Assembly (NCBI GenBank): GCA_949286165.1 | Contig: CASDZK010000058.1 | Coordinates: 62,001-126,000, forward strand | Length of the DNA stretch: 64,000 nucleotides | Source of the DNA: an uncultured Alistipes sp. | Lineage (GTDB): Bacteria > Bacteroidota > Bacteroidia > Bacteroidales > Rikenellaceae | Direction of reading: 5' to 3' | Shown: one piece after another, positions 20,984 to 41,399 of the stretch | Numbering within the stretch: position 1 is the first letter of the stretch | Layout: each line of letters opens with the position of its first letter | Notes under the pieces: model-generated | Told to the model about the DNA's origin: nothing | Databases searched by the model: none | The model's input: the letters and a program-made list of their open reading frames with translations, nothing else | Translations under genes and position numbers: made by a program

Positions 20984-21006
20984 AAAACTTGATGATCGTA
21001 CGAATT

Positions 21007-22503: not shown

Positions 22504-22518
22504 TAAAAAATAAGATTG

Positions 22519-23544
22519 TTAGTAGGTCTCCAGTTCATGCTGCACGTAAGGAAGTGTCAATAACAAAGTTTTCAATTCTTCCACATTCAATCGATATGTA
22601 TTGTCGGAATTGTATTCTTTATCCTGCAAACGGGGAGGATCGGTCGCCCTGTACTTCGTATAATTCAAATCGCGGAAATCGGCCGGAATCCGATAAAAAT
22701 CGCCCAAATCTTCCGCTTTGCTCATCTCCTCCTTACCGCATAACGATTCATACATTTTTTCTCCATGACGAGCCCCGATAATCTTGATTTCATTATTTGC
22801 ATGAAAAATCTCTTTAAGGGCGATTGCTAACGTTTCTATTGTCGCTGCCGGAGCTTTCTGCACAAAAATATCCCCAGGCTGGGCGTGTTCAAAAGCATAC
22901 ATGACCAATCGGACCGAATCGTCCAGAGACATCATGAAGCGGGTCATATTCGGTTCGGTTACCGTTAGCGGTTGTCCTTGCTTGATCTGTTTGATAAATA
23001 AAGGAATGATTGAACCTCGAGAACACATTACATTGCCATAACGCGTGCAGCAAAAGACACCGTTGTTCGCCTTTACCTGCGGCATACGCGCTTTGTTGAT
23101 GCAAAGTTTTTCCATCAACGCCTTAGTCATCCCCATCGTATTTATCGGGTAAACCGCTTTATCCGTCGAAAGGACCACGACCCGTTTTACCCGGTTACGC
23201 ACGGCTGCTTCCAATACGTTCTCCGAACCCAAAATATTGGTCTGAATAGCCTGAACCGGATAAAACTCACAAGAAGGCACTTGTTTAAGCGCTGCTGCAT
23301 TAAACACGTAATCGGCTCCTTCCATGGCCGAATTGATCGAATGAAAATCGCGAATATCTCCGATAATAAAATTGATTTTATCGTTTTTCAGTTCCAACCG
23401 CAATTCATCCTGCTTTTTTTCATCGCGCGAAAACACCCGGATTTCCCGAAGATCGGAATTTGCAAATTTATGCAATATCGTACTGCCAAACGACCCAGTA
23501 CCTCCAGTAATAAGCAAAACTTTGTCTTTAAACATATTTTTCAC
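22519..23544 (-). CDS. UDP-GlcNAc 4,6-dehydratase-like protein (CapE/FnlA type)
   Basis: 341 residues, extended SDR. NAD motif GGTGSFGS, NAAALKQVP, STDKAVYPINTMGMTKALMEK. Where ordinary SDRs have YxxxK this has MxxxK (NTMGMTK), a known feature of inverting UDP-GlcNAc dehydratases. The product would be a UDP-4-keto-6-deoxy sugar. Next to it lie two DegT proteins and an LpxD-like acyltransferase, which suggests amination and acylation of that keto sugar. The family call is firm and the pathway inferred. Confidence 0.85.
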   Translation of the reverse strand: MKNMFKDKVLLITGGTGSFGSTILHKFANSDLREIRVFSRDEKKQDELRLELKNDKINFIIGDIRDFHSINSAMEGADYVFNAAALKQVPSCEFYPVQAIQTNILGSENVLEAAVRNRVKRVVVLSTDKAVYPINTMGMTKALMEKLCINKARMPQVKANNGVFCCTRYGNVMCSRGSIIPLFIKQIKQGQPLTVTEPNMTRFMMSLDDSVRLVMYAFEHAQPGDIFVQKAPAATIETLAIALKEIFHANNEIKIIGARHGEKMYESLCGKEEMSKAEDLGDFYRIPADFRDLNYTKYRATDPPRLQDKEYNSDNTYRLNVEELKTLLLTLPYVQHELETY

Positions 23545-23613
23545 TGATTTTATATTTTATGGAGTCATCCACCTTCTTTTATCCGAGATTTCATGACAGA
23601 CGCTCCTCTCTTC

Positions 23614-24552
23614 TCATTCCATAATTTTTTTCAATGCGCCCCGCATCTTTATAAATTCCTTTCTGGACACGGCCGGACTGCCAATAACCGTATCTCCCGG
23701 CGGGACATCCCGTTTAACCGTAGCATGGGTCCCTACCATGGCCTGTTGCCCTACCGTAACCCGATTCATAACAACCGCTTGCGGCGATATCCAACAGCCA
23801 TTTTCAACAACCGACGAACCCAATAAAGTCGAATGTGCTGCGAGCACGCTATTTTTGCCGACCATACAATTGTGTGCTATATGGCAATGATTGTTGATTT
23901 GAGTATGATCGCCGATCTGTACATTGCCTTCGAAAAGGGCATTCCCAATCGCTACATGGTCTCCAATCCACACCTTATTCCCGATTACCGTACCTCCGAC
24001 GTGTACTGCATTGAACGGGACTCCTTCCCGCGTATAAAAAATTTGAAACCCGGCGCTACCGATTACGGAACAACATCCGATATGTGTGTCATTACCGATC
24101 CGGCTATTCCGATTTACGATACTGTACGGCCCGATCGTGACCCGGTCTCCTATGACCACTCCGTTTTCTATCACAACAGATTTATGAATCCGACAATCTT
24201 TTCCGATAATCGGTTCAAAATCGTTTTTCTCATAAAAATCGGTAGCTTCGTATAACCATTTATGCAGTCGATAAAAATCTTCTTCCGGAGCATCCGATAT
24301 CAGAAAGGAAAACCGGTCATGACACTCCGGTTTCAATTGCAAATACTGTTTTTCTGAAATAACAAGCGCCCTGACGTGGGGATTATTCAGAGCGTTTTTC
24401 AAATACTCGGACGAGGTAATATAAGATAAAATCGACGGATAAACGGTAGGCCTGTTGCATAAGCCCAAACCGTTGATCTCCACATCGGCATTATACAACG
24501 GAACATTTAATTGTTTTGCGATTTCGGAAAGCAAAACAGACCTTTGCTTCAT
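23614..24552 (-). CDS. LpxD-like sugar N-acyltransferase
   Basis: 312 residues. An N-terminal LpxD-like uridine-binding domain (about 1-105) precedes a left-handed beta-helix with many hexapeptide repeats (IGDRVTIGPYS, IGNKVWIGDHVAIG) and the typical HCHIAHNCMVG catalytic-His region. A housekeeping LpxD would normally sit with lpx genes. Here it lies inside a polysaccharide operon and overlaps a DegT gene by four bases, so it more likely acylates a nucleotide-linked amino sugar. The acyl donor is unknown. Confidence 0.82.
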   Translation of the reverse strand: MKQRSVLLSEIAKQLNVPLYNADVEINGLGLCNRPTVYPSILSYITSSEYLKNALNNPHVRALVISEKQYLQLKPECHDRFSFLISDAPEEDFYRLHKWLYEATDFYEKNDFEPIIGKDCRIHKSVVIENGVVIGDRVTIGPYSIVNRNSRIGNDTHIGCCSVIGSAGFQIFYTREGVPFNAVHVGGTVIGNKVWIGDHVAIGNALFEGNVQIGDHTQINNHCHIAHNCMVGKNSVLAAHSTLLGSSVVENGCWISPQAVVMNRVTVGQQAMVGTHATVKRDVPPGDTVIGSPAVSRKEFIKMRGALKKIME

Positions 24553-25631
24553 ATATTTTTATTTTGATTAAACCACCAGCCGCAAGGAACGGCCACATAA
24601 TGTTCATAAAACTCCCGGACGCCGGACAGCCTCTCCCCCCGGTCGTTAAAAACGGAATAGTAATAATTGGGCAAATGCACCGACGAAGCGTGATACCCCA
24701 TTTCCCGGAAATGCAAAATTCCTTTTTCACGCCCGTTACCGTACAATAATCCGAATACCCAATAATTGGGAAGCGTTTCGGAACGTCCCAACGGGGTAAC
24801 GCCGGATTCCGCGGCCAACTGCTCCCGCCATCGATCGGCATTGTTCCGTTGCCGTTCCAACAAGGCATCCATATCCTCCATCTGTCGGCAACCGATATAA
24901 CTGCTGATTTCATTCATCGTTACGCCCATGCCGGGAAACGTGACATCGGAAGCGGGAGAAATTTCTCCCAAATTGTCCCGAAACGTTTTTCGATCTACGC
25001 CCAAATCCCGCATCCGGCAAGCTTTTTCATGCAGTTCCGCATCCCGGAAACAGACGGCTCCCCCGTCAATGGCATTCGGCAACCGAACCGTCTGAAAGGA
25101 AAACAAGGAAACGTCGGCTCCGGCAGCTCCTAACATACGGTCTTTATACACGGCCCCGAATGCTTCTATACAATCGTCGATAACGAATATCCCTTTCTCC
25201 TTTCCTATGGCATTGATTTCATCGATATATCCCGGATATCCGCAATGATGATTATGAAAAATCGCCCGCGTCGCCGGAGTAATCTTCTTCCGTACGCTGT
25301 CAGGCGACAAAGTGCCTGTTTTCGGATCGATATCGGCCCAGACCGTTTTGGCCCCCACCGAAAGAATCGGCATGTTGGAAGCCAGACAACTTTGAGGCGA
25401 CGCGATAACTTCGTCGCCCGCACCGATATCCAATGTTTTCAAAGCGATTTGCACCGCAGCATTATAAGAATTAACGACAGCGACATGCGGCGCTCCGGTA
25501 TAACCGGCGATCATGGCTTCGAACTTCCGTCCCCATTTCCCGTAAGCCAACGCCCCCGAATGGAGAATGGCTTCCATTTCCGGCAATTTTTCCGGCATAT
25601 ACGGTTTATACAACGGTATATTCTCACTCAT
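24549..25631 (-). CDS. DegT/DnrJ/EryC1-family protein with the PLP Lys replaced by Arg
   Basis: 360 residues, aminotransferase fold type I as in sugar aminotransferases: NSYNAAVQIAL, GAGDEVIASPQS, NHHCGYPGYID, VIDDCIEAFGA. At the position of the Schiff-base Lys it reads FSFQTVRLPNAIDGG with codon CGG (Arg). The neighbour at 25634-26722 reads FSLQAIKHLTTVDGG. It therefore should not form the internal aldimine. Both share an unusual C-terminal PCGWW, so they are probably duplicated partners. It may be a heterodimer subunit or have another PLP- or PMP-dependent role. Confidence 0.85.
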   Translation of the reverse strand: MSENIPLYKPYMPEKLPEMEAILHSGALAYGKWGRKFEAMIAGYTGAPHVAVVNSYNAAVQIALKTLDIGAGDEVIASPQSCLASNMPILSVGAKTVWADIDPKTGTLSPDSVRKKITPATRAIFHNHHCGYPGYIDEINAIGKEKGIFVIDDCIEAFGAVYKDRMLGAAGADVSLFSFQTVRLPNAIDGGAVCFRDAELHEKACRMRDLGVDRKTFRDNLGEISPASDVTFPGMGVTMNEISSYIGCRQMEDMDALLERQRNNADRWREQLAAESGVTPLGRSETLPNYWVFGLLYGNGREKGILHFREMGYHASSVHLPNYYYSVFNDRGERLSGVREFYEHYVAVPCGWWFNQNKNI

Positions 25632-25633
25632 GA

Positions 25634-26722
25634 CTACCAGCCTTTTTTAATCAAAGCGACTATTCTCTCCCGATCGGCATCGGTTACCCACCATCCGCAG
25701 GGAATATGCACGAATGTCGAATAAAACTCATCCAAAGCCGGCAATTCGCATTTCGACTCGGCAAATACCGAATGCCTGTCGTTACGCAAATGCAGTTCGG
25801 AAGCGGCAATACCGTTTTCCTCCATCATTCTCACAAAATCGTTCCTGTTTTCCACCTTCAGGGTATACAACCAATAAGAAGGTTCGGTATGCCCGTAATA
25901 AGGCAACAACGTCACACCCGGTATTCCGGACAACGCTTTGTCGAAATAACGGCCGTTATCCTTATGCCGTCCGACGACACGATCGATATACCGCATCTGC
26001 ACAAGCCCGATCGTAGCGTTCACGTTATTCATGTGATACTTGTACCCGGGAAATTTAATGTCGTTTTCCAGTCTCGGCACTTTTTTGTCCAAACCGAACC
26101 AACGCAATTTTCGAGCGTCCGGCAGCCGATCGGGAGTTTTCAATGCGATAAATCCGCCGTCTACCGTAGTCAGATGTTTGATAGCCTGCAAAGAAAAACA
26201 GGTATAGGCGGAATTGCCGCCTACCGGTTTCCCGCAATAACCGCTCCCCATGGCATGGGCCGTATCTTCGATGACCGGGATTCCCGTTTCCGACGAGACG
26301 ATATTGATTTTATCCATATCGCACACCATCCCGGCATAATGAACGACCATGATCGCTTTCGTCCGTTCAGTTATCTTTTGCCGAATGCTTTCCGGATCGA
26401 TCAATCCCGTATTCACATCCACGTCGGCCCAGACGACTTTAGCTCCGGTCAATTTAATGGCTACATTCGTCGGTTCCGCCGTCAAAGCAGTGGAGATGAC
26501 CTCGTCTCCGGGCCCGACACCCGCCAATAGCAAGGCGATATGCAAAGCTGCCGTTCCTGAATTCAAAGACAACACATTCGAATTCCGGATATAAGAACCG
26601 AACACCGATTCGAATTCATAAACTTTTTCTCCTTCAGCGATATAACCGCTATACAACGTCCGTTCTATTTCCGGCATCATCACTTCGGCCGGCGCTACGA
26701 ACGGTTTAACCATGGGTATCAT
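25634..26722 (-). CDS. DegT/DnrJ/EryC1-family sugar aminotransferase
   Basis: 362 residues with an intact active site: SLNSGTAALHIALLLAG, GDEVISTALTAEPTN, VVHYAGMVCDMD, VIEDTAHAMGSGYCG and the PLP Lys in FSLQAIKHLTTVDGG. It transfers an amino group, usually from glutamate, to a nucleotide-linked keto sugar; the likely substrate here is the product of the CapE-like dehydratase or a dTDP-keto sugar. It precedes its Lys-less paralogue by two bases. Confidence 0.9.
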   Translation of the reverse strand: MIPMVKPFVAPAEVMMPEIERTLYSGYIAEGEKVYEFESVFGSYIRNSNVLSLNSGTAALHIALLLAGVGPGDEVISTALTAEPTNVAIKLTGAKVVWADVDVNTGLIDPESIRQKITERTKAIMVVHYAGMVCDMDKINIVSSETGIPVIEDTAHAMGSGYCGKPVGGNSAYTCFSLQAIKHLTTVDGGFIALKTPDRLPDARKLRWFGLDKKVPRLENDIKFPGYKYHMNNVNATIGLVQMRYIDRVVGRHKDNGRYFDKALSGIPGVTLLPYYGHTEPSYWLYTLKVENRNDFVRMMEENGIAASELHLRNDRHSVFAESKCELPALDEFYSTFVHIPCGWWVTDADRERIVALIKKGW

Positions 26723-26735
26723 ATCTCAACAAAAT

Positions 26736-27803
26736 TTAACATGATGATTTGCCATACATGTTCCGATAATAATTTTCATATTCTCCGGAAACTACATGAT
26801 CGAGCCACGTCTGATTCTCAAAATACCACTCGACCGTCATCTCAATGCCTCGCTCAAACCGTACAGACGGTTCCCATCCCAGCTCGTTCTTGAGCTTGGA
26901 ACTATCGATAGCGTACCGCAAATCGTGACCGGCCCGATCGGCGACATACGTAATGAGCCTATCGCTCGTGCCCTCGGGTTTTCCCAAAAGTTTATCGACA
27001 GTTCGAACGAGCACACGGACCAGATCGATGTTTTTCCACTCGTTGAATCCGCCGATATTATAGGTATCGGCAACCTTTCCCTTATGAAAAATCAGATCGA
27101 TGGCGCGCGCATGATCTTCCACATACAACCAGTCCCGCACATTCTCTCCTTTGCCGTACACCGGCAGCGGTTTTCCCTGCCGGATATTGTTGATAAAAAG
27201 CGGTATTAACTTTTCAGGGAACTGATACGGTCCGTAATTGTTGGAACAGTTGGTCACGATAGTAGGCATGCCGTAAGTATCGTGAAAAGCCCGGACGAAA
27301 TGATCCGAAGAGGCTTTGGACGCGGAATAAGGGCTGTGAGGGTCATATCTGGTCTGTTCCGTAAAAAACGTTCCGTCAAATGCCAAAGCTCCATATACCT
27401 CATCTGTAGAAATATGGTAGAACTTCTTGTCCGCATAATTCCCTTCCCAACAGGTCTTGGCCGCCTGCAAAAGCGACAAAGTTCCCAACACGTTGGTCTT
27501 TGCGAAAGTGAACGGATCCCGGATGCTCCGGTCCACATGGCTTTCAGCGGCCAAATGGATAACCCCGTCGATACCGTATTCCCTGAACAAGAGCAACATG
27601 CGCTCATAATCGCAAATATCGCCCCGGACAAAGACATAATTGGGCGCGTTTTCGACATCTTTCAGGTTTTCCAGATTCCCGGCATAGGTCAATTTATCCA
27701 AATTGACGATGCGGTATTCCGGATAGCGATTGACAAACAACCGTACGACATGGGAACCGATGAACCCGGCCCCGCCTGTGATCAGAATATTGCGTTTGAA
27801 CAT
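26736..27803 (-). CDS. rmlB: dTDP-glucose 4,6-dehydratase
   Basis: 355 residues. NAD motif GGAGFIGSH, HLAAESHVDRSI, catalytic STDEVYG, YSASKASSDH and NNYGPYQFPEKLIP are diagnostic. Second step of dTDP-L-rhamnose synthesis. It is placed last of the four rml genes, 10 bases after rmlD. Confidence 0.95.
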   Translation of the reverse strand: MFKRNILITGGAGFIGSHVVRLFVNRYPEYRIVNLDKLTYAGNLENLKDVENAPNYVFVRGDICDYERMLLLFREYGIDGVIHLAAESHVDRSIRDPFTFAKTNVLGTLSLLQAAKTCWEGNYADKKFYHISTDEVYGALAFDGTFFTEQTRYDPHSPYSASKASSDHFVRAFHDTYGMPTIVTNCSNNYGPYQFPEKLIPLFINNIRQGKPLPVYGKGENVRDWLYVEDHARAIDLIFHKGKVADTYNIGGFNEWKNIDLVRVLVRTVDKLLGKPEGTSDRLITYVADRAGHDLRYAIDSSKLKNELGWEPSVRFERGIEMTVEWYFENQTWLDHVVSGEYENYYRNMYGKSSC

Positions 27804-27813
27804 AAAAACTTAA

Positions 27814-28692
27814 TTATTTGCCGGGTGCCGACATCCGGCCCAAACAACGTTCCAATGCGTTTCTCCAATAAGGGATTTCCCAACCGAAAGCTGCCCGGAC
27901 CTTCCGTTTATCCAATACCGAAAAGTTCGGCCGCTTCACTTTCGACGGAAACTGCGACGAATCGCAAGGCAAAATACGACAGGCGGCATGTCCGGACAAA
28001 GCGGCTATCGCCACGGCAAAGTCGTACCAGGAACATACGCCTTCGTTGCTGAAATGGTAAATTCCCTCCTTACCGGCATACCGGTCGTTCTCCAATATAT
28101 CGAAAATCAATTCCGCCAAATCCGCCGCATAAGTCGGCGTGCCTACCTGGTCGAACACGACATTCAACCGTTCCTTTTCCGCCGTAAGACGCAACATCGT
28201 CTTTACGAAATTATTCCCGAATTCGGAATAGAGCCACGATGTTCGGAAAATCAGATAACGACAGCCGCTGTCGCGAATCATCTCCTCCCCTTCCCATTTG
28301 GTCCGGCCGTAAACGCTGCGGGGAGCGGGAACATCTTCTTCCGTGTAAGGCGTACTTTTATCTCCGGCAAACACGTAATCGGTGGAAACATGAATCAGCA
28401 GCGCGTTCCGTTCCTTGACGGCTTCCGCCAGATTTTTCACGGCAGCACAGTTCAGCAACCGGGCGGTCGTCTCATCCTCTTCCGCTTTGTCCACCTGCGT
28501 ATAGGCAGCGCAATTGACAATGGCCGTTACCTCGTTCTCTCTCACAAACCGACGGACGGCCTGCGCATCGGCGATATCCAGTTCGGCCACATCGGTAAAC
28601 AGGTAACGCTTTTCCGACCGTTGGCCGAGCCGCCGCATCTCATTGCCCAATTGTCCGTTCGCACCGGTTACCAAAATCACATCATTCCGCAT
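27814..28692 (-). CDS. rmlD: dTDP-4-dehydrorhamnose reductase
   Basis: 292 residues, final step to dTDP-L-rhamnose. GANGQLGNEM, NCAAYTQVDKAEED, STDYVFAGDK, YGRTKWEGE. I place the start at 28692 (MRNDVILVTG), 11 bases inside the end of rmlC, because it begins right at the nucleotide-binding strand. The longer open frame to 28731 adds a non-conserved tail lying within rmlC. Confidence 0.94.
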   Translation of the reverse strand: MRNDVILVTGANGQLGNEMRRLGQRSEKRYLFTDVAELDIADAQAVRRFVRENEVTAIVNCAAYTQVDKAEEDETTARLLNCAAVKNLAEAVKERNALLIHVSTDYVFAGDKSTPYTEEDVPAPRSVYGRTKWEGEEMIRDSGCRYLIFRTSWLYSEFGNNFVKTMLRLTAEKERLNVVFDQVGTPTYAADLAELIFDILENDRYAGKEGIYHFSNEGVCSWYDFAVAIAALSGHAACRILPCDSSQFPSKVKRPNFSVLDKRKVRAAFGWEIPYWRNALERCLGRMSAPGK

Positions 28693-29257
28693 AACAATCC
28701 GTATAATAATCGAACAATTCGGAAACGGCATTCAGGCGGGGATGCCTCTTGTCCTTGTCCGAAAGCAGGATATCGGACGCGCTCAAACGCCAGTCGATTC
28801 CCAAATCGGGATCGTCCCACGCGATCGCCCCTTCGCTTTCCGGAGCGTAAAAATTATCGCATTTATACTGAAAGACGGCCTCTTCGCTCAATACGGAAAA
28901 TCCGTGGGCGAATCCCCGCGGAACAAAAAACTGCCGTTTGTTTTCTCCCGAGAGTTCCACGGCTACGTGCCGTCCGAACGTCGGCGATCCCCGACGGATA
29001 TCTACGGCCACATCCAACACGGTTCCGCTTACCACACGCACCAGCTTGCTCTGCGCATGCCTCCCCTTTTGAAAATGCAGGCCCCGTAAAACACCGTATC
29101 TCGATTTCGATTCGTTATCCTGCACGAAACGAATAGGACGCACCATCTCATCGAAAACTTTTTGAGAGAAACTTTCAAAAAAGTATCCCCGATCGTCTCC
29201 GAAAATCCGGGGTTCCAAAATGACGACCCCGTCGATCGCTGTCTTTATGATATTCAT
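28682..29257 (-). CDS. rmlC: dTDP-4-dehydrorhamnose 3,5-epimerase
   Basis: 191 residues, cupin fold. DNESKSRYGVLRGLHFQKG with the active-site His, KLVRVVSGTVLDVAVDIRRGSPTFG, and FVPRGFAHGFSVLSEEAVFQYK. Normal length. Lies between rmlA and rmlD. Confidence 0.95.
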   Translation of the reverse strand: MNIIKTAIDGVVILEPRIFGDDRGYFFESFSQKVFDEMVRPIRFVQDNESKSRYGVLRGLHFQKGRHAQSKLVRVVSGTVLDVAVDIRRGSPTFGRHVAVELSGENKRQFFVPRGFAHGFSVLSEEAVFQYKCDNFYAPESEGAIAWDDPDLGIDWRLSASDILLSDKDKRHPRLNAVSELFDYYTDCYAE

Positions 29258-29263
29258 TTCACT

Positions 29264-30166
29264 CTAATGCCTGTTTCCGGCAGTACGTTTTATTTCATCG
29301 ATGACTTTAAGCAGATATTGTCCGTACTGGTTTTTCAGCATCGGACGGGCCAGTTCCCGCATTTTCTCCTCCGACACCCAGCCCTTCCGATAGGCGATTC
29401 CTTCAAGACAAGCGATTTTCAACCCTTGCCGTTTTTCCAGCACTTCCACGAAAATCGAGGCTTCGGACAACGAATCGTGCGTGCCGGTGTCCAGCCAGGC
29501 GAATCCCCGTCCCAACGTTTGAACCCGCAACTGGCCTTCCGCCAAAAAATATTGATTGACGGAAGTGATTTCCAGCTCTCCCCGATCCGAAGGTTTGATC
29601 TTGCGGGCCACATCGACCACTTTGTTCGGATAGAAATACAGCCCTACCACGGCATAGTTCGATTTGGGCCGTTCCGGTTTTTCTTCAATCGACAGGCAAT
29701 TCCCCTCGCCGTCGAATTCCGCCACGCCGTACCGCTCCGGATCATCCACCCAGTAGCCGAATACGGTCGCTTTATTTTCCTCTTCCGCCTGACGAACCGC
29801 TTCCTTCAACATGGAAGAAAAGCCTGCTCCCTGAAAAATATTGTCTCCCAGCACCAAGCAAACCGCGTCGTTCCCGATAAAATCGGCCCCGATAACAAAA
29901 GCCTGGGCCAATCCGTCCGGAGAAGGCTGTTCCGCATATTCGAACCGGACGCCGAAATCGGAACCGTCGCCCAATAACCTGCGGAATGCCGGTAAATCAT
30001 ACGGAGTAGATATAATCAATATATCCCGGATTCCGGCCAGCATCAACACCGAAATCGGATAATAAATCATCGGCTTGTCGTAAACGGGAAGCAGTTGTTT
30101 CGATACCCCTTTCGTAATCGGATACAGACGGGTACCGCTGCCGCCGGCCAATACGATTCCTTTCAT
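29264..30166 (-). CDS. rmlA: Glucose-1-phosphate thymidylyltransferase
   Basis: 300 residues. [44 protein letters not shown] and [11 protein letters not shown] identify the enzyme making dTDP-glucose, usually feedback-inhibited by dTDP-rhamnose. First biosynthetic gene of the left operon, 39 bases after upxY. Confidence 0.95.
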
Positions 30167-30205: not shown

Positions 30206-30727
30206 TTATTCTATTTTTTCGAGGAAAGCGGGGTTTATGAAGGCCGTAGCGATGGAAACCACACCTTCTAACCGGACCACTACCCGACGGTCGCCCCCGA
30301 TACGCATCAGCTCCCCTTCGATCCCTTTGAACGGACCGTGAATGATCCGGACCCGCTGGCCCCGTTTCAATTCCGAGGTCAGCACCGTGATTCCCCCGTC
30401 CGGGAAGTCCAGCAACCGGATGAAATCCTCCATCTGTTTGTCAGGGATGGCAACCGGCAGACGGCTTTCCTTGTCGCGAATGAAATAGACGTTCAGCGAA
30501 TATTCGTTTTTCAACCGGTAACACATCTCCGTAACGGTGTGCAGAAACACCAAACCGGGAATCACGGGAACCGTCCGTTTCCGACGGCCGGCGGCCGTCT
30601 CCGACCAACGCGTCTCCATAGGCAGGTAGTTCTCCACGCCCAAAGCGTCCAAACGCCGTTTAACCCGCAGTTCTCCGCGGGGAGCCGTTTTGGCGGCAAA
30701 CCACTGTTTGTCAGGAATATCTGTCAT
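30206..30727 (-). CDS. upxY: UpxY-family transcription antiterminator, left copy
   Basis: 173 residues. NusG-like N-terminal domain (DKQWFAAKTAPRGELRVKRRLDALG, near IPGLVFLH) and a C-terminal KOW segment (RGQRVRIIHGPFKGIEGEL). In Bacteroides, UpxY proteins bind RNA polymerase in the leader of their own capsule operon and prevent premature termination. The start at 30727 (MTDIPDKQWF) fits the family; an upstream extension of the open frame is leader. It is 97% identical to the oppositely oriented copy at 31341-31862. No upxZ partner follows; rmlA is next. Confidence 0.92.
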   Translation of the reverse strand: MTDIPDKQWFAAKTAPRGELRVKRRLDALGVENYLPMETRWSETAAGRRKRTVPVIPGLVFLHTVTEMCYRLKNEYSLNVYFIRDKESRLPVAIPDKQMEDFIRLLDFPDGGITVLTSELKRGQRVRIIHGPFKGIEGELMRIGGDRRVVVRLEGVVSIATAFINPAFLEKIE

Positions 30728-30853
30728 GAAATAAAGGCGGGAGAAACGACCGGTAAGGGCATACTCCAAGCTCGTCAAAGCCCATAAGCATATCGGCTCA
30801 GAACACTTGAAAAACGAGCGATGATTCTGTTTCCCTCTATCACAGAGGAAAAC
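30728..30853 (-). promoter_or_regulatory. 5' leader of left polysaccharide operon
   Basis: The untranslated region between the inferred promoter and upxY. It starts with a 10 bp stem (GTTTTCCTCT / AGAGGGAAAC, one G-U pair, five-base loop), followed by a possible second stem (CAGAA...TTCTG). It is identical in sequence to the leader of the right operon. Leaders of this kind are where UpxY acts in Bacteroides, so I infer an antitermination site. Confidence 0.55.
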
Positions 30854-31214
30854 CAAATCAACTATTGAGGTTACAAAGGTAAGTATTTTTTTCTTCGCAA
30901 CAAGGGAGGATTCCTTTTTTGAAGCATAATAAAATCGAAGTATTGAACCGGTAATCCAAAAATTGTTCCGGAATTCCTAAAATATTTTTAACAATTTAAA
31001 ATAAATATTGTGTGCATTGAATTGGAACGTTTCGACAAATCGATCAGGCAAAAAATATATAAACCGATTCATTATGAACGAATTATAAAAACAGTTGAAA
31101 AAGAACGTCCATTTCGGAAAATGAATAGAAAATTAGTCTCAAGACATACTAAATCATGAATAATAGCGAACGCTCGTTTTGTATTTTATTGATTTTCAAT
31201 ACGATATAAATTCT
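30854..31214. other. AT-rich spacer between inverted upxY arms; candidate invertible promoter segment
   Basis: 361 bp without a credible gene. It is flanked on both sides by identical leader sequence. It contains one full-consensus -7 box (30874-30881, toward the left operon). At the mirror position on the right (31187-31194) the sequence is TATTGATT, which does not match. Only a weak, badly spaced promoter-like stretch (TTTTG at 31177, TAAATT at 31207) faces right. Inversion between the arms would exchange the two sides. Confidence 0.6.
30874..30881 (-). promoter_or_regulatory. -7 promoter box (TACCTTTG) of left polysaccharide operon
   Basis: Exact TAnnTTTG match on the minus strand, with TTG 16 bases upstream as a possible -33 element, 21 bases before the inverted-repeat leader begins. 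It is the best promoter in the spacer. Confidence 0.65.
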
Positions 31215-31340
31215 GTTTTCCTCTGTGATAGAGGGAAACAGAATCATCGCTCGTTTTTCAAGTGTTCTGAGCCGATATGCTTATGGGCTTTGACGAGCTT
31301 GGAGTATGCCCTTACCGGTCGTTTCTCCCGCCTTTATTTC
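31215..31340 (+). promoter_or_regulatory. 5' leader of right polysaccharide operon
   Basis: Identical to the left leader, with the same 10 bp hairpin at 31215-31239. It is therefore expected to respond to either UpxY copy. No full-consensus promoter box precedes it in the present orientation of the spacer. Confidence 0.55.
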
Positions 31341-31862
31341 ATGACAGACATTCCTGACAAACAGTGGTTTGCCGCCAAAACGGCTCCCCGCGGAGAACTG
31401 CGGGTCAAACGGCGTTTGGACGCTTTGGGCGTGGAGAACTACCTGCCTATGGAGACGCGTTGGTCGGAGACGGCCGCCGGCCGTCGGAAACGGACGGTTC
31501 CCGTGATTCCCGGTCTGGTGTTTCTGCACACCGTTACGGAGATGTGTTACCGGTTGAAAAACGAATATTCGCTGAACGTCTATTTCATTCGCGACAAGGA
31601 AAGCCGTCTGCCGGCGGCTATTCCTGACAAACAGATGGAGAATTTCATCCGGTTGCTGGACTTCCCGGACGGGGGAATCACGGTGCTGACCTCGGAATTG
31701 AAACGGGGCCAGCGGGTCCGGATCATTCACGGTCCGTTCAAGGGAGTCGAAGGGGAGCTAATGCGCATCGGGGGCGACCGTCGGGTAGTGGTCCGGTTAG
31801 AAGGTGTAGTCTCCATCGCCACGGCCTTCATAAACCCCGCTTTCCTAGAAAAAATAGAGTAA
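31341..31862 (+). CDS. upxY: UpxY-family transcription antiterminator, right copy
   Basis: 173 residues, heading the plus-strand polysaccharide operon. Same NusG-like and KOW features as the left copy. Only four residue changes were noticed (V to A and D to N around residues 110-120, I to V in the KOW loop, and similar conservative ones). The start is at 31341 by equivalence with the left copy. The stop is 11 bases before the flippase gene. Such near-identity suggests recent duplication or continuing gene conversion. Confidence 0.92.
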   Translation: MTDIPDKQWFAAKTAPRGELRVKRRLDALGVENYLPMETRWSETAAGRRKRTVPVIPGLVFLHTVTEMCYRLKNEYSLNVYFIRDKESRLPAAIPDKQMENFIRLLDFPDGGITVLTSELKRGQRVRIIHGPFKGVEGELMRIGGDRRVVVRLEGVVSIATAFINPAFLEKIE

Positions 31863-31873: not shown

Positions 31874-33418
31874 ATGTCAGACAAATCCCGCACAGCCAAA
31901 AGTTTAAAAAACGCCCGGATCGCATTACTTTACTATTGTATAAATCTGATTCTTCAATTCTTCTCCCGTAAAGTCTTTATCGATTATTTGGGAGCGGAAT
32001 TATTGGGATTGAACGCAACAGCCACCAATCTGCTGCAATTTTTAAATCTAGCAGAATTAGGAATCAATTCGGCCATAGGTTATGCCTTGTATTCCCCTTT
32101 AGCCACCGAAGATCGCAAAGCCGTTTGCGATATCATTTCAATTCAAGGTTTTTTATACAGACGCATCGCCTGGATCATCATAGGCGGAGCTTTGATACTT
32201 ATGTTTTTTTTCCCGTTTTTCTTTCAAAAAACGGAATTGCCGCTCGGATATGCTTACGCCACTTTCGGGGTATTATTAATCAATGCTTTAGCCGGATATT
32301 TTTTCAATTACCGCCAAATCATTCTGACGGCCGACCAAAAAGAATACAAACTGAACAACGCCATTCAGCGAATTCGGTTAGTAAAAACACTACTGCAAAT
32401 TCTGTGTATCGCCACTATGGCTTACGGCTATATCTGGTGGCTCGCCTTGGAATTGATCGGTACTGTAGGAACTGTTTGGTCTATCAACTCGACTGTTCGA
32501 AAAGAATATCCCTGGCTAAAAACCAATTTGATTCAAGGCAAACTGCTCCGACATGAATATCCACATATTGCAACAAAAACGAAACAACTCTTTTTTCGAA
32601 AAATCAGCGGATACGTTTTTTCCCAAACCAGTCCGTTAATCATATATGCCTATGCCTCACTTACTTTAGTAGCCATCTACAGCAATTACATGCTGATTAT
32701 TACAGGCATTGTGGTTCTCCTAAAAGCCGTATTCAACGGGATTGATGCCAGTATCGGCAATTTAATCGTCGAAAACGATAAAAACAAGATATTGCAAGTG
32801 TTTCGGGAACTTTTCAGTTCCAGATTTCTAATTGCTACGCTTATCTGTACAAACGTCGTTTTATTCATCAATCCGTTCATTACCTTATGGATAGGTAAAG
32901 ATTATCTATTAGATCCCTTGGCCCTGTATCTTTTGGTAGGTATTCTTTACATACAATCCATGCGCACGGTCGTCGATTTATATTTAAATGCTTACGGACT
33001 TTTTCATGATATATGGGCAACTATAACAGAAGCCGTTTTGAACATCGGACTGTCAATTTTATTAGGATACTATTGGGGATTGCATGGTATTCTTTCCGGA
33101 GTTCTCATCAGCCTGATTGTCATCGTTTTCCTATGGAGACCTTATTTCCTATTTACTCAAGGACTGCATGAAAAATTAAGTACGTACATCGACATTTATT
33201 CCCGACATATACTGGCCGCAGGAATTATAATTACCGGATTATTCATCCTGTCCCGTTGGTGGTCGATCGGTTCCGTGACAAGTTGGACAAAATTGATTCT
33301 GCATGCCTCAATCGTTACTATAATCACAGGAATCTGTTTGACCGGATTATTATATCGAATTGAACCGGGCATGAGAAATTTCATTCACAGAATCTACTCT
33401 TTCATTCTGCATAAATGA
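31874..33418 (+). CDS. Polysaccharide flippase (Wzx-like)
   Basis: 514 residues, about 12-14 membrane segments. The N-terminus ALLYYCINLILQFFSRKVFIDYLGAELLGLNATATNLLQFLNLAELG is typical of the Wzx branch common in Bacteroides and Gram-positive capsule loci. It exports the lipid-linked unit of the right operon. It shows no close likeness to the left-operon flippase. Somewhat AT-rich. It overlaps the following broken gene by four bases. Confidence 0.88.
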   Translation: MSDKSRTAKSLKNARIALLYYCINLILQFFSRKVFIDYLGAELLGLNATATNLLQFLNLAELGINSAIGYALYSPLATEDRKAVCDIISIQGFLYRRIAWIIIGGALILMFFFPFFFQKTELPLGYAYATFGVLLINALAGYFFNYRQIILTADQKEYKLNNAIQRIRLVKTLLQILCIATMAYGYIWWLALELIGTVGTVWSINSTVRKEYPWLKTNLIQGKLLRHEYPHIATKTKQLFFRKISGYVFSQTSPLIIYAYASLTLVAIYSNYMLIITGIVVLLKAVFNGIDASIGNLIVENDKNKILQVFRELFSSRFLIATLICTNVVLFINPFITLWIGKDYLLDPLALYLLVGILYIQSMRTVVDLYLNAYGLFHDIWATITEAVLNIGLSILLGYYWGLHGILSGVLISLIVIVFLWRPYFLFTQGLHEKLSTYIDIYSRHILAAGIIITGLFILSRWWSIGSVTSWTKLILHASIVTIITGICLTGLLYRIEPGMRNFIHRIYSFILHK

Positions 33419-34238
33419 TCCTCCCTCAAAAATTCCGTTCAAAATATCTGGATATCCGATGGAATATCGGCTTTTTCCCTTTACGGAACATTCGGTCATC
33501 GGCGCCCCCCTTGGACAATCCGTGGCTCTGTCACAATTACCGGAACAGACGGTTGGCCGATCCGGTTTTATTGGAGGCAAAGAAATCGACCATCAATGTT
33601 ATTATTGGTCAAGAAGTTCCCCTTAGCTACCAGAAAAGGAATATTAAGCCGTCTGACCGTCGATGCCCAAACGTATGAACTGTTGAAACGTGTTCCCGTC
33701 TTGGTGTTACCGACTCATTTGTCGTTTCCCGCCATTTTCCGCCAGGATAAGGAAATATACGTTTATCCGGAAAACAGCGCGGCAGGACATCTCGTTTATT
33801 ATCGCAACGATCCGGAAACGAATCGTTGCACCTCTTACGGTCCATTATCGAATCGCTTACCGACGGCATCATAGAACCGATAAACGGTAAATATTACTTT
33901 ATTTTCCACATGGTTTCCCGATCCGAACGGAAACCGGATGGACATTTATTCCTCCGAAAATGCGTTCGGCCCTTACCTCCGATGGCGTTCAAGAGATTCT
34001 TTTTACCGATCGAACTGCAACCGCACAAAATGCAGGCAGCAACATGTTTCGACTGAACGGCACCTTTTCATTCCGCGAATTTCGACGAATATACCCTGCT
34101 ACCCGAAAATATTCATTGGGAATGCACACGTTCAACACCGACGGACGCCTTTGTGTCATCGATAACCCACGAATACCGGTACCATTTATCAAACATTACG
34201 TTAATCATCTTCGTTATCTCCGTAATTTATTCCGATAA
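33415..34238 (+). pseudogene. Broken glucosamine inositolphosphorylceramide transferase-like/GH43-like protein
   Basis: Pieces of one protein are spread over all three frames. Frame from 33415: WNIGFFPLRN, DNPWLCHNYRNRRLADPVLLEA. Frame from 33596: ILSRLTVDAQTYELLKR, LPTHLSFPAIFRQ, VYPENSAAGHL. Frame from 33826: ESLTDGIIEPINGKYYFIFH. Near 33938: DIYSSENAFGPY. Frame from 33960: FSFREFRRIYPATRKYSLGMHTFNTDGRL. Together they follow the order of a known five-bladed, GH43-like family in O-antigen loci. At least four frameshifts are present, and the usual RPAQDC region is missing, so the gene is dead. Confidence 0.82.
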
Positions 34239-34243
34239 TTACC

Positions 34244-35317
34244 ATGCGACTTTTGTTTTACATATCCAGCATGAGAGGAGGCGGAGCGGAACGTGTCATG
34301 GCGCTCCTTACGTCGGAAATGGTACGTCGCGGGCACGACGTGTCGTTGGCCACCAATTGCCGGTATCCGTTCGCCTATTCCCTCGATCCGAGTATTCGGA
34401 TTCATCCGCTTTATCCTTCCCTTCCCAGCGGAAACCGCATAATACGTACCAAAAACCTTTATAGAGAAATCCGCCGAATAGCCAAACGAAGCCAGGCGGA
34501 TATCATCGTCTCCTTTCTTCCGAACGTTTGTGCCGCAGTATGGGGGCTCGGCATACCCGTCATTCAATCCGAACATACTGCATTGAACCGGAAATTGCCG
34601 TTGAAACAAGAATTCGGACGCAAGATCGTCAATAAATTCGCTTCGGTCGTTACCGTGCTTACCCCGACCGATCTCCGATTAATCCGACGGACGGTACCGC
34701 ATGCCGTAATCATGCCTAATCCCTTGACATTTCCCCTTTACGACACTCCCGCTTCCCCGCGCGAAAAAACGGTACTTGCCGTGGGAAGATTATTCGCATG
34801 GGAAATCAAGGGATTCGATCTGCTACTCGAATCCTGGGGAAAAATCGCCGATCGTTATCCCGAATGGAAATTACAAATAGCCGGCGACGGACGGCCCGAA
34901 GATTTCAGCCGCATGCGAAGTCTGATTCGGTACTACCAAATCGAGAACTCCGTGGAATTATTGGGATTCCGCAAAGACATCGACCTGCTGTTGCAAAAAG
35001 CTTCCCTGTTCGTGCTAAGCTCCCGATACGAAGGCTTTTCGATGGTCTTGATCGAAGCCATGAGCCAGGGTTGCCCCTGCATAAGTTTCGACTGCGATAA
35101 CGGTCCCCGTTTTATTTTAAAACACGAAGAAAGCGGAATACTCGTAGAGAAAGAGAACTCCCTGGCCCTGAGCCAAGCCATAGCCGACCTGATCGAGCAT
35201 CCGGCACAACGCCAAGCATTAGCCCGGCAAGCTATGAAAGAAGTCGCGCAATATTCCATAGACAAGATTGCCGACCGATGGGAAAAACTATTCGATAAAA
35301 TACAAAGGAAAACATGA
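34244..35317 (+). CDS. Family 4 glycosyltransferase
   Basis: 357 residues, GT-B fold. N-terminal LFYISSMRGGGAERVMALL, C-terminal donor-site VGRLFAWEIKGFDLLLESW and the EX7E-type SRYEGFSMVLIEAMSQGCP. Starts six bases after the end of the pseudogene and overlaps the next gene by four bases. Cytoplasmic; donor unknown. Resembles polymannosyl GTs such as those of the AmsD/EpsF group. Confidence 0.9.
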   Translation: MRLLFYISSMRGGGAERVMALLTSEMVRRGHDVSLATNCRYPFAYSLDPSIRIHPLYPSLPSGNRIIRTKNLYREIRRIAKRSQADIIVSFLPNVCAAVWGLGIPVIQSEHTALNRKLPLKQEFGRKIVNKFASVVTVLTPTDLRLIRRTVPHAVIMPNPLTFPLYDTPASPREKTVLAVGRLFAWEIKGFDLLLESWGKIADRYPEWKLQIAGDGRPEDFSRMRSLIRYYQIENSVELLGFRKDIDLLLQKASLFVLSSRYEGFSMVLIEAMSQGCPCISFDCDNGPRFILKHEESGILVEKENSLALSQAIADLIEHPAQRQALARQAMKEVAQYSIDKIADRWEKLFDKIQRKT

Positions 35318-35832
35318 TCAAACGCATTTTATTTCATCTTCAAAGAATACTTTGTTCTCCCGAGACTTTCGCCAGGAGACAAGGAGTGAGCATAGGTACG
35401 GACAATTTTATCAACACGACCCATTTCGGCACGGAACCTTACCTGATAACTATTGGCAGCCATTGCCAGATTACCGCCGGAGTAAAATTCCACACACACG
35501 GAGGCGCCCAGGTACTCAGAGACCGCGATCCTCATTTCGATTTCTTCGGCAAAATAAAGATCGGCGATTACGTATATATCGGAAACGATGCGCAAATCAT
35601 GCCCAGAGTGACTTTAGGCGATCATACGTTAGTGGCTGCCGGAAGCATCGTTACCAAATCATGGCCGCAGGGAAATATCATTATCGGCGGAAATCCGGCC
35701 AGAGAAATCGGGAACATCGAAAGTTTTGCCCAAAAGATGGGGCCTTATAACCTGAAAAGCAAGGATATGACCACTGCCCGAAAAAGAGAATTCCTACTGT
35801 CTTTGCCCGACGATCAGTTCGTGCAAAAATAA
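35314..35832 (+). CDS. Left-handed beta-helix acyltransferase
   Basis: 172 residues. Hexapeptide pattern (IGSHCQITAGVKFHTHGGA, KIGDYVYIGNDAQIMPRVTLGDHTLVAAGSIVTKSW) and the terminal IIGGNPAREIG are typical of WcaF/WbbJ-type O-acetyltransferases, with the catalytic His in FHTHGG. It probably decorates the right-operon glycan. Coupled to the gene before it by a four-base overlap. Confidence 0.85.
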   Translation: MIKRILFHLQRILCSPETFARRQGVSIGTDNFINTTHFGTEPYLITIGSHCQITAGVKFHTHGGAQVLRDRDPHFDFFGKIKIGDYVYIGNDAQIMPRVTLGDHTLVAAGSIVTKSWPQGNIIIGGNPAREIGNIESFAQKMGPYNLKSKDMTTARKREFLLSLPDDQFVQK

Positions 35833-35836
35833 TTAG

Positions 35837-36901
35837 ATGAATATTTATCTATTCAATATTCTTCTTATTCTGATTTACGGCATTTATTGCCGTATCTTAC
35901 GGTTTTCCGTTCGAAAGACAGGAATGGTTCTGTATTCGCTCGGCGGTCTCCAACTGCTTTTAGTTTCCGTTTTGCGTTCGACCGAGGTAGGAGGCGATTT
36001 AAAAAATTATCTGCCGACTTTTCAGAATATCGCCAACCATTCATGGAACGGCTTGATTCAGGATTTCGGATTTGAACCCGGTTATGTGTTGCTGAACAAG
36101 ATATGTTCTGTTTTTTCCGACGACGATTTCATTCTGCTTTTCGCTTGCGGAATCATCTGTGTTCCCTTATATATCAATTTTCTACGACATAACTCTCGAA
36201 TTCCGTACCTGAGCCTGCTCCTGTTTATCGGAATGGGGTTTTATACCTCCACCCTTTCCATGCTCCGACAGGCAATTGCCATAGCGATCGTCATCAACGG
36301 CTTACCTTATATCGAGAAACGACAATTCGGACGGTTTCTTTGCACGGTATTATTAGGCGCATCATTCCATTTTACGGCCTTAATCTTTCTGATTCTGTAT
36401 CCGATCAGCCGTATAAAAATCGGTTGGGGATATTTCGCCATCGTATTGTCGGGAGCCGCCTTACTCAGTTTGACCATCGGCCGGTCGGTTCTGGCATTCA
36501 TGATTAATCGATTGTATAGTTTATACGAGGGAAACGAAGTACGCGGAGAAGGGTACACCATGTTATTTTTTCTCATTGCCGTTACCGCGTTCGGTCTTTT
36601 TGTCCGGTCACGTATCCCATTAAACGAACGAAAACAACAAGATATCTTTTATCACATGATGATCCTTGCCTGCGGATTGCAGTTTCTGTCTCTGCAATTC
36701 AGTCTGTTCGCCCGGATTATCCTGTATTTCAGCAGTGCGCTTATGGTGTTCGTCCCGAATACCATATCCATGATCAAACCGGCAGGTCCTAAAGCCGTCA
36801 TGCATCTGGTCTGGATCGGATTCATCTTCTTTTATTTCACAACGGCTATTATCGGACCAAACAGTTCCGGCATCGTTCCATATACTTTTTTTTGGGAGTA
36901 A
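35837..36901 (+). CDS. EpsG-family polysaccharide polymerase (Wzy-like)
   Basis: 354 residues with about ten membrane segments. SVLRSTEVGGDLKNYLPTF and TLSMLRQAIAIAIVINGLPYIEKRQFGRF match the EpsG/Wzy pattern. It would polymerise the right-operon repeat units. Its presence next to its own flippase shows that the right locus has a full Wzx/Wzy system separate from the left one. Confidence 0.85.
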   Translation: MNIYLFNILLILIYGIYCRILRFSVRKTGMVLYSLGGLQLLLVSVLRSTEVGGDLKNYLPTFQNIANHSWNGLIQDFGFEPGYVLLNKICSVFSDDDFILLFACGIICVPLYINFLRHNSRIPYLSLLLFIGMGFYTSTLSMLRQAIAIAIVINGLPYIEKRQFGRFLCTVLLGASFHFTALIFLILYPISRIKIGWGYFAIVLSGAALLSLTIGRSVLAFMINRLYSLYEGNEVRGEGYTMLFFLIAVTAFGLFVRSRIPLNERKQQDIFYHMMILACGLQFLSLQFSLFARIILYFSSALMVFVPNTISMIKPAGPKAVMHLVWIGFIFFYFTTAIIGPNSSGIVPYTFFWE

Positions 36902-36913
36902 GTAACTCTGACT

Positions 36914-38008
36914 ATGAAAATCTTTTGTCTGATCGACAGCCTCGGTTCCGGAGGCGCACAACGCCAATTGGTAGGACTCGCGCAATATCTCCGGCAAGCC
37001 GGACACGATACGAGCGTCCTATATTATCACGACGACCATTTCTACCGTCCGTTTTGCGAAAAACACGAGATACCGACGCAATGTTTTTATAAACATCCTC
37101 GCAAAATACGAAACTTGGCCGCACTCCTTACCTATATCCGGCATAACCAACCCGATGCGATCATCTCGTATCTGGGCGGGCCGAATATGCTGAATTGTCT
37201 GTTGCGGCTTTTTCGTCGCCGTTACCGATGCATCGTTTCGGAACGAACCTCTACCCGCGCCTTACCGCCTTCGGTAAAACAGAAACTCCGTTTTTTCTTA
37301 TATAGGCAAGCCGACTTCGTAGTTCCCAATTCTTTTGCGGAAGCAGAATATTTATCGCAAAAATATCCCCGGTTATCCCGGAAGATTCATCCGATTACCA
37401 ATTTCGTCGATCTGGATTATTTCCGTCCCGCAATACCTCGGGAACCTTCAATGAAAGCATTGCGAATCGTCGGAGTGGGCCGCATCAATCGGGCTAAAAA
37501 CATTCATCGACTGCTCCGCGCCATCCCTCGCATACCGGCCGACAAACCTTTTCGCATCGACTGGTTCGGCAGGGTCGAAGACGAGTCGTATTATCGGGAA
37601 TGCCAACAAACGATACGGGATTTGCAACTGGAAGAGAGATTCTATTTCCATGATGCGACATCTCAAATCCTAACCGTTTACCACCAGGCCGACGCACTCT
37701 GTCTCCCGTCCGTCAGAGAAGGATTTCCCAACGTCATCTGCGAAGCGATGGCTTGTGGACTCCCGATTCTTTGCAGCCACGTCGGGGACAATCCCCGGAT
37801 CGTAGCCGACACATCTTCCGGCTGGATATTCGATCCCTACACCGTCGACTCCATATCCGACGCTTTACTGTCTTTTCTACGAACGACGCCGGAACAACGG
37901 GAAGAGATCGCCCGTAAAAATCGCAACGATGCGTTAAAACGATTCTCGAGCCGAACATTTACCGAACAATACCTGCATTTGTTAGACATTCATGCACAAA
38001 CGTCATAG
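36914..38008 (+). CDS. Family 4 glycosyltransferase
   Basis: 364 residues. IFCLIDSLGSGGAQRQLVGLAQYLRQAGH at the N-terminus and VGRINRAKNIHRLLRAIPRI, LPSVREGFPNVICEAMACGLP in the donor domain. GT-B fold, cytoplasmic. The start at 36914 lies 12 bases after the wzy stop. It overlaps the next GT gene by 17 bases. Confidence 0.9.
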   Translation: MKIFCLIDSLGSGGAQRQLVGLAQYLRQAGHDTSVLYYHDDHFYRPFCEKHEIPTQCFYKHPRKIRNLAALLTYIRHNQPDAIISYLGGPNMLNCLLRLFRRRYRCIVSERTSTRALPPSVKQKLRFFLYRQADFVVPNSFAEAEYLSQKYPRLSRKIHPITNFVDLDYFRPAIPREPSMKALRIVGVGRINRAKNIHRLLRAIPRIPADKPFRIDWFGRVEDESYYRECQQTIRDLQLEERFYFHDATSQILTVYHQADALCLPSVREGFPNVICEAMACGLPILCSHVGDNPRIVADTSSGWIFDPYTVDSISDALLSFLRTTPEQREEIARKNRNDALKRFSSRTFTEQYLHLLDIHAQTS

Positions 38009-39092
38009 TCATATCGTCATTTTCTGCGGAAGTTTGGAAGCGGGCGGAGCCGAACGGGTCATCTCTATTCTGTCGAAACGGTTACTGCCCTATTTTCAAA
38101 CGGTTGAAGTATTGTTGTATTACGACAGACCTATCTGGTACGACATGGATCCTGCCGTAAAAATCACATCGATAGAAAAGAGCTGCAAAGCGAAAAGCCG
38201 CATCGGCAGAGCCTGGTGGTTACGAAACTACATCAAACGGCAATGTCCGGCATTGGTACTTTCTTTCTTATCGCCTTTCAATATTTTTTACCGGGCAGCC
38301 TCGTTCGGATTACAGGTTCCCCTGCTGGTCGCGGATCGAAGCGATCCCCGGCACGATCCCGGATCTTCCCTGCTCCGGACCATTCGCAATATTTGTTACC
38401 GGTATGCGGAAGGCATTGTGGTACAAAGCGATTATAACCGAAAGTACTTCAATAAAAACATTCGGAAAAAAAGCATCGTCATCCAAAATCCGGTCGAATT
38501 TCCGGACGAGTTGATCGGGAAGGCTTGCCGGTCGGCCAAAATACCGGAAATCGTATCGGTCGGTCGTTTGGTTCCGGTTAAAAACCACCGGTTATTGATC
38601 GACGCATTCGCCGTTTTTCATGCCCGACATCCTCAATACCGGTTATTCATTTACGGCGAAGGACCTTGTCGGCCGATGCTTGAGGAACAAATACGAGAAA
38701 AAAAACTATCCGGTAGCGTACAATTATGCGGCAGCGTACAAAATCCCTGGAAACATCTGCTATCCGCCGAAATCTTCATCCTCAGTTCCGATTTCGAGGG
38801 CATGCCCAATGCTTTAGCTGAAGCCGTATGCCTGGGATTGCCCTGCATATCCACCCATGTATCGGGAGCTTCCGAACTGATTTCAGCAGGAAAGACCGGT
38901 CTGCTCGTTCCTCCCGGAAACGCAGACCGAATGACCGAAGCTCTTGAAACCCTTATCGATTCGCCGTTATCGGCTTCCGTACTTGCGGATCATGCCCGGG
39001 AAACAGCCTCCCGCCTGATGCCGGAAAAAATCATCGGAGAATGGATCGGATTCATCCGGAGCATTCTTCAAGACCATACAAAAAACACTTAA
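37992..39092 (+). CDS. Family 4 glycosyltransferase
   Basis: 366 residues. IVIFCGSLEAGGAERVISILSKRL; VGRLVPVKNHRLLIDAFAVF; SSDFEGMPNALAEAVCLGLPCI. It has the same fold as the two neighbouring GT4 genes but is only distantly alike, so it is not a recent duplicate. Third of the intact GTs in this operon. Confidence 0.9.
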   Translation: MHKRHSHIVIFCGSLEAGGAERVISILSKRLLPYFQTVEVLLYYDRPIWYDMDPAVKITSIEKSCKAKSRIGRAWWLRNYIKRQCPALVLSFLSPFNIFYRAASFGLQVPLLVADRSDPRHDPGSSLLRTIRNICYRYAEGIVVQSDYNRKYFNKNIRKKSIVIQNPVEFPDELIGKACRSAKIPEIVSVGRLVPVKNHRLLIDAFAVFHARHPQYRLFIYGEGPCRPMLEEQIREKKLSGSVQLCGSVQNPWKHLLSAEIFILSSDFEGMPNALAEAVCLGLPCISTHVSGASELISAGKTGLLVPPGNADRMTEALETLIDSPLSASVLADHARETASRLMPEKIIGEWIGFIRSILQDHTKNT

Positions 39093-39102
39093 TTACCCTA
39101 TA

Positions 39103-40071
39103 ATGAAAGTCTTAGTAACCGGAGGCGCCGGTTTTATCGGCTCCAATTTATGCGAAGCGTTACTGTCTCAGGGACATCGGGTAACCTGTTTCGACAATTT
39201 CGCCACTGGAAAACCGGAAAATATTTTTCCGTTACTGAACCGTTATCCCGAACATTTTCAATTAATCGTAGGCGACATCCGAAATCCGGAAGATTGCCGG
39301 AAAGCGGTCGAAGGCGCCGAATACGTCCTTCACGAAGCCGCCCTGGGATCTGTTCCCCGTTCTATCAAGGACCCCGCTACAACCAATGAAGTCAATATCG
39401 GCGGATTCGTCCATATGCTCATCGCCGCCCGCGATGCGGGCGTCCGGCGTTTCGTCTATGCCGCCAGCTCATCCACTTACGGCGATTCGGTCAAATTACC
39501 TAAAGTAGAAGAAGAGATCGGACGTCCCCTTTCGCCCTATGCCGTTACCAAATACGTCAATGAACTCTATGCGGACGTATTTGCCAAAACTTACGGCATG
39601 GAATGTATCGGGCTGCGATATTTCAATGTTTTCGGCCGCCGACAGGATCCTTTCGGCGCTTACGCGGCCGTTATTCCGCTGTTCGTTCGCAAACTGATGC
39701 GTCACGAATCGCCCACGATAAACGGAGACGGAGAATATTCCCGGGATTTCACTTATATCGACAACGTCATTCAAATGAATATGCTCGCGTTGCAAGTTTC
39801 CGATCCCGAAGCCGTCAATACGGTTTACAATACGGCATGCGGCGACCGCACTACGCTCAATCAACTGGTCGAATACCTGAAAGAGTTGTTGTCGGAATTC
39901 GATCCGGCCATACGACAAATCCGGATACTGCACGGACCCAATCGCTTGGGCGACATTCCCCATTCTCTGGCTTCGATAGACAAAGCTCGCCGGCTGTTAG
40001 GCTACGCCCCCCGATACAACATGTACGAAGGGCTGAAGGAAGCGGTAAAATGGTATTGGGAAAATCTATAA
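39103..40071 (+). CDS. UDP-GlcNAc 4-epimerase-like (WbpP/TviC type)
   Basis: 322 residues, extended SDR. GGAGFIGSNLCE, EAALGSVPRSIKDPATTNEVN, catalytic SSSTYGDS and YAVTKYVNE, FGRRQDPFGAYAAVIP. The short SVPRS segment and GRRQDP are typical of epimerases acting on UDP-GlcNAc/GalNAc or their uronic acids. With the dehydrogenase next door it should yield UDP-GalNAcA, as in Vi antigen and Pseudomonas O6 synthesis. Confidence 0.86.
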   Translation: MKVLVTGGAGFIGSNLCEALLSQGHRVTCFDNFATGKPENIFPLLNRYPEHFQLIVGDIRNPEDCRKAVEGAEYVLHEAALGSVPRSIKDPATTNEVNIGGFVHMLIAARDAGVRRFVYAASSSTYGDSVKLPKVEEEIGRPLSPYAVTKYVNELYADVFAKTYGMECIGLRYFNVFGRRQDPFGAYAAVIPLFVRKLMRHESPTINGDGEYSRDFTYIDNVIQMNMLALQVSDPEAVNTVYNTACGDRTTLNQLVEYLKELLSEFDPAIRQIRILHGPNRLGDIPHSLASIDKARRLLGYAPRYNMYEGLKEAVKWYWENL

Positions 40072-40095
40072 CAAACAAAAAAAATCGCTCGAAAT

Positions 40096-41361: not shown

Positions 41362-41399
41362 GCAGTTGTTCAGGGAACTGTTTTAAAACACACTTTTAT

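Follow-up and report, generated by a model that had tools for sequence, protein, structure and literature searches.

How two divergent polysaccharide operons can be served by the one recognisable promoter that lies between them, and that at present faces only one of them, is the question raised by this locus of an uncultured Alistipes species. The window analysed here, a stretch of 64,000 nucleotides, belongs to a 146 kb contig of a draft assembly of 71 contigs that is 87% complete. The best explanation, which we put at a probability of roughly 0.6, is that the segment carrying the promoter is invertible and common to both operons, forming an either/or switch between two polysaccharides. The central features are as follows.

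30206..30853, minus strand: left arm of the mirror pair, 648 bp, comprising leader and upxY (repeat search)
30206..30727, minus strand: left upxY, putative antiterminator of the UpxY family, 173 aa, PF02357 E=1.2e-11
30829..30853, minus strand: leader dyad GTTTTCCTCT-GTGAT-AGAGGGAAAC, innermost 25 bp of the left arm, hairpin in the RNA and candidate site for recombination
30854..31214, no strand: non-coding spacer, 361 bp, the segment predicted to invert
30874..30881, minus strand (faces left): -7 box TACCTTTG, with a TTG about 22 nt upstream, conserved in the congener G001
31187..31194, plus strand: mirror position of the -7 box, TATTGATT, at present a non-match
31215..31862, plus strand: right arm of the mirror pair, 648 bp, comprising leader and upxY (repeat search)
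31215..31239, plus strand: inverted counterpart of the left dyad, innermost 25 bp of the right arm
31341..31862, plus strand: right upxY, 173 aa, NCBIfam NF033644 (antiterm_UpxY) 155.7 bits, PF02357

The two arms lie in inverted orientation, align without gaps and differ at 18 positions (97% identity), and a repeat search recovered them, and the spacer, at the same coordinates and with the same counts that an earlier note on this DNA had obtained by eye. An automatic search, by adding five edge bases, arrives at 653 bp with 20 mismatches, and the spacer measures 351 bp if these wider arms are taken. The arms are delimited by the leader hairpin at one end and the upxY stop codon at the other, and each contains a leader of about 126 bp and, as the earlier note had also stated, a complete upxY gene. 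An inverted repeat of this length and identity cannot be due to chance. Within 104 kb of the contig no other inverted pair of at least 14 exact bases, spaced 40-700 bp, encloses a promoter box, and genome-wide matches to the region consist of the region itself and one arm against the other. The defining arrangement of the Bacteroides-type invertible capsule promoter, a box between inverted repeats upstream of upxY, is thus present, with repeats of 648 bp as against the 10-30 bp of the site-specific type; the 25-bp dyads at the inner arm ends are candidate short sites.

The left-facing box scores 16.9 bits with a weight matrix, compared with 8.1 bits for the next-best site in the region, while the maxima obtained from shuffled spacers reach 8.0 bits at the 95% level and 10.0 bits at the 99% level. 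No right-facing promoter of the family type rises above chance in the spacer with this matrix; the best right-facing site lies about 270 bp from the right arm and has a poor box, and a generic sigma-70 scan gave only weak right-facing matches. The matrix derives from the regions upstream of 18 upxY genes in the family, and because it is small, includes some weak training sites and contains the promoter of G001, the absence it reports applies to this promoter type only. The right operon thus appears to have no recognisable promoter of the family type, and a promoter of another sigma class is possible there. The earlier description of a single full-consensus box, facing leftward and mirrored by a non-match, agrees with these scores. 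Inversion of the spacer in silico places TACCTTTG at 31187-31194, facing rightward and at an unchanged distance from the leader, and none of the 648 possible crossover points (0/648, in silico) breaks either upxY.

The assignment of the arm genes to the UpxY family follows from the score of the right copy, which exceeds the NF033644 cut-off of 100 bits; the left protein is only three amino acids different, and a NusG domain is present in both. Each gene opens its polysaccharide operon and is preceded by a structured leader. In the genome, as far as its 87% completeness reaches, these are the only two UpxY genes found, and the NusG family numbers three, the third, located elsewhere, being taken to be the housekeeping NusG. 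An upxZ-like second gene is not evident on either side, with rmlA (left) and a flippase-like gene (right) directly following upxY. Of 17 codons that differ between the arms 14 are synonymous, compared with a neutral expectation of 73% non-synonymous changes (P ~1e-5), and hence both copies are maintained. Judged by this codon pattern, both are under purifying selection, although the constraint on the right copy could come from the left one by way of conversion.

The differences between the arms are unevenly placed. None falls in the 126-bp leader; within upxY the inner half has three and the outer half 15, so that the inner 385 bp hold three and the outer 263 bp 15, whereas the divergence of the arms from G001 is even, with 42 differences in the leader, 68 in the inner half and 65 in the outer half (110 inner, 65 outer). 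The contrast between inner and outer parts with G001 as control is significant (Fisher P=2e-4) and says, as read from the alignment, that the promoter-proximal 385 bp have recently exchanged sequence between the arms. The signal fits a crossover, in which the spacer flips, as well as gene conversion, in which the spacer stays, and either could give it.

The leader folds more stably than its shuffled versions, with z=-3.4 in the genome under study and a weaker z=-1.4 in G001, and hairpins occur at matching places in both, with some paired changes visible by eye in an alignment of three sequences. An element resembling GTATGCC was seen by eye shortly before upxY in many leaders of the family (for example loci L018, L020, L022, L028 and L031) and is a possible UpxY recruitment or pause site.

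The operons beyond the arms are made up as follows.

14932..30166, minus strand: left polysaccharide operon, largely syntenic in G001
18630-19733, left operon: EpsG/Wzy
21007-22503, left operon: Wzx
31874..42508, plus strand: right polysaccharide operon, absent from G001
31874-33418, plus strand: flippase-like gene of the right operon, no Pfam or NCBIfam match
35837-36901, right operon: EpsG/Wzy

The left operon runs through rmlA, C, D and B (names assigned by gene order, gene size and the beginning of each translation), two DegT aminotransferases, acyltransferases, Wzx, EpsG and glycosyltransferases. The right operon encodes a putative flippase, glycosyltransferases, EpsG/Wzy and nucleotide-sugar enzymes. 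The earlier note had given each operon its own Wzx and Wzy; EpsG/Wzy-like genes do occur on both sides and a Wzx on the left, while the right flippase matches no Pfam or NCBIfam model and therefore owes its name to position and size only. Two right-operon genes appear broken. The glycosyltransferase at 41400-42508 is frameshifted, its domains at 41400-41954 and 41957-42508 lying in different frames, and the stretch 33430-34240 is probably degraded, its first fragment weakly resembling GINT1_N. These may be signs of decay or errors of the draft assembly.

G001, the sole other genome of the genus compared, possesses one upxY, 83% identical, and the left operon in the same order, with the same promoter in the same, left, direction. 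It has no right operon and no inverted repeats around its promoter; directly past the promoter lies a sulfatase gene, and the same sulfatase gene follows the right operon in the genome under study. As G001 has the left operon only, the right operon and the mirrored upxY would have been gained in the lineage studied here or lost in that of G001, and two genomes cannot tell which. Among the matches listed from 268 genomes of the family, and likewise among those from 393 genomes of the order, no other head-to-head pair of near-identical upxY genes was found; both surveys took one genome per species, and pairs at contig breaks would escape them. One member of the family, G101 (G101:C7:225463-226537), carries two upxY genes in tandem and in the same direction. 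No flipped spacer was seen in G001, with its single operon, or in the scan of genome contigs, which returned three distant loci only, and the leader pattern found no match in viral contigs. In the comparison of spacer orientation among relatives that the earlier note had proposed, G001 gave the same promoter direction and, with one operon, no flipped form.

These observations have to be set against a duplication that does not switch, in which the left leader and upxY were copied in inverted orientation when the right operon was acquired or assembled, inversion is too rare to be of use, the right cluster is either silent, in decay or transcribed from a promoter that escaped recognition, and the likeness of the arms is upheld by gene conversion. 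The frameshifted and the apparently degraded gene suit a silent or decaying right cluster, and together with the failure to see a flipped copy they make such a static or decaying duplication possible; conversion would explain the identity gradient along the arms, and the promoter of G001 is fixed and without repeats. Against it stand the want of a family-type promoter on the right side, the intact and constrained state of both upxY genes and the exact geometry of the flip. Long near-identical inverted repeats close together are moreover expected to recombine in a RecA-proficient cell, and those found here are 361 bp apart. We regard the static duplication as possible but rather unlikely. An assembly or amplification artefact, that is a false inverted duplication, would be conceivable in a draft of 71 contigs at 87% completeness, since inverted chimeras exist. 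It was rejected because the 18 arm differences are mostly synonymous; the arms also have unique flanks and a unique downstream operon within a 146-kb contig, and we consider this origin extremely improbable.

A further alternative is a variant of the switch itself, and its probability overlaps that of the main reading: a tyrosine or serine recombinase would act on the dyads GTTTTCCTCT-GTGAT-AGAGGGAAAC, the long arms being a by-product of duplication. A relative within the same family, G013 (locus L051, G013:C1:735000-750000), has inverted repeats of 30 bp, 90% identical and 228 bp apart, around a upxY promoter that now points away from upxY (OFF), with a tyrosine recombinase gene about 75 bp past the repeats (features at 6064-6351 and 6426-7607 of L051). 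Its dyads, TCCGTCTCTT-AAA-AAGAGACGGA with an inverted core, are of similar design to those described here, and its hairpin nearest upxY is one of the two repeats. By its sequence organisation this is a conventional short-repeat invertible upxY promoter, and its site occupies the place that the dyad takes at the spacer-side end of either arm in our locus. The genome under study encodes a homologue of this tyrosine recombinase (43% identical) and a putative Mpi-type serine invertase (L061, G000:C20, 8208-8867), which at 262.3 bits falls just below the NF009949 cut-off of 272 and was not found in G001 or G013. The position of the G013 site, the recombinase homologue and the putative Mpi-type invertase together make a site-specific route possible.

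Several findings nevertheless weigh against the dyads as recombination sites. G001 and G048 each have one such dyad in the corresponding position, and its retention in G001 as a lone copy suggests that it also has a role in the leader, perhaps as RNA. Elsewhere in the genome it has no mismatch-free copy, and matches with two mismatches were fewer than in the control count. No recombinase gene occurs among the window genes examined, and the Mpi-like protein scores under its family cut-off. Site-specific inversion would, moreover, not result in homogenisation of the arms. On balance we think the site-specific variant unlikely.

In the stretches read near the Mpi-like gene and the tyrosine recombinase homologue, no local inverton was found. 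The Mpi core repeat is quoted as ARACGTTCGTN (PMC8375218); by reading, the arm ends show no clear match to it, with partial matches at 31168-31178 (GAACGCTCGTT) and in the arms (CGCTCGTTTT). When Mpi-like sites next to promoter boxes were sought across the genome under study, the pattern proved far too loose, with about 175 matches, and was left unused. The leader 10-mer CGCTCGTTTT, found at 30811-30820 and 31248-31257, has one further copy in the right-hand portion of the spacer (31171-31180), which is therefore inverted relative to the copy in the left arm; this recurrence of a partly Mpi-core-like word could be chance.

The reading that we prefer is thus the shared invertible promoter. In the orientation assembled, the promoter would drive the left operon through its leader and upxY, the right operon being off; recombination between the mirrored leader-upxY arms would flip the spacer, after which this promoter would stand upstream of the right leader at an unchanged distance, and the cell would thus make only one of the two polysaccharides at a time. 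The likelier route would be homologous recombination in the arms, with site-specific recombination at the inner leader dyads possible. As the leaders and UpxY proteins are nearly identical and upxZ is absent, the direction of the promoter would decide between the operons. Both the inversion in living cells and the mutual exclusivity of the two states are what we infer. The two-way switch of the earlier note is supported in part: it gains from the lone promoter, the purifying selection, the exchange between arms, the lack of upxZ and the geometry of the flip, and loses from the two apparently broken genes of the right operon. Its most specific form, a toggle by general homologous recombination of head-to-head upxY genes that imposes a strict either/or on two UpxY-controlled polysaccharides with neither UpxZ nor a dedicated invertase, is put forward tentatively. 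If the switch is real, exclusivity would arise from DNA topology alone, with one promoter and two directions; a mirror copy of the regulator gene would be a way to add a second polysaccharide to the first; and a survey of invertons designed around short repeats may overlook a switch in which entire genes serve as the repeats.

In gut Bacteroidaceae an invertible promoter before upxY is the rule (PMC12632263, PMC13114119, PMC8375218), and in Bacteroides intestinalis a 10-bp GTTCGTTTAA repeat surrounds 183-186 bp (PMC8375218). The Bacteroides fragilis Mpi regulon, PVR7-12 of B. intestinalis and the PS locus of Phocaeicola vulgatus resemble the locus described here in having the promoter upstream of upxY, a Bacteroidales -7 box and an operon with Wzx and Wzy. 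However, each of those loci has its own on/off promoter flanked by short repeats, whereas here, as the earlier note recognised in setting the locus apart from B. fragilis, a single promoter is situated between two operons, and the antiterminator genes form part of the 648-bp repeats. Exclusive capsule expression in Bacteroides relies on separate invertible promoters and on UpxZ repression between loci. The UpxY of B. fragilis acts by leader-dependent antitermination from the first gene of its operon (PMC7315117); the present genes share that position but lack an accompanying upxZ, and since the two UpxY proteins and their leaders are nearly identical, UpxY specificity cannot separate the operons here. 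The Salmonella Hin flagellar phase switch likewise inverts a promoter segment, but does so at short hix sites with the invertase inside the segment, and uses the promoter in one direction. Similar in principle is the sap S-layer switch of Campylobacter fetus, in which one promoter on an invertible segment between oppositely oriented homologous genes selects one of two surface products; these are surface-layer proteins there and polysaccharide operons here, and no homology is implied. Its RecA dependence is debated, switching in a recA-disrupted mutant having been cited (PMC5634654). Inversion of capsule promoters is thus known, and what the locus would add is a single promoter for two operons, set between gene-sized repeats that carry the antiterminator.
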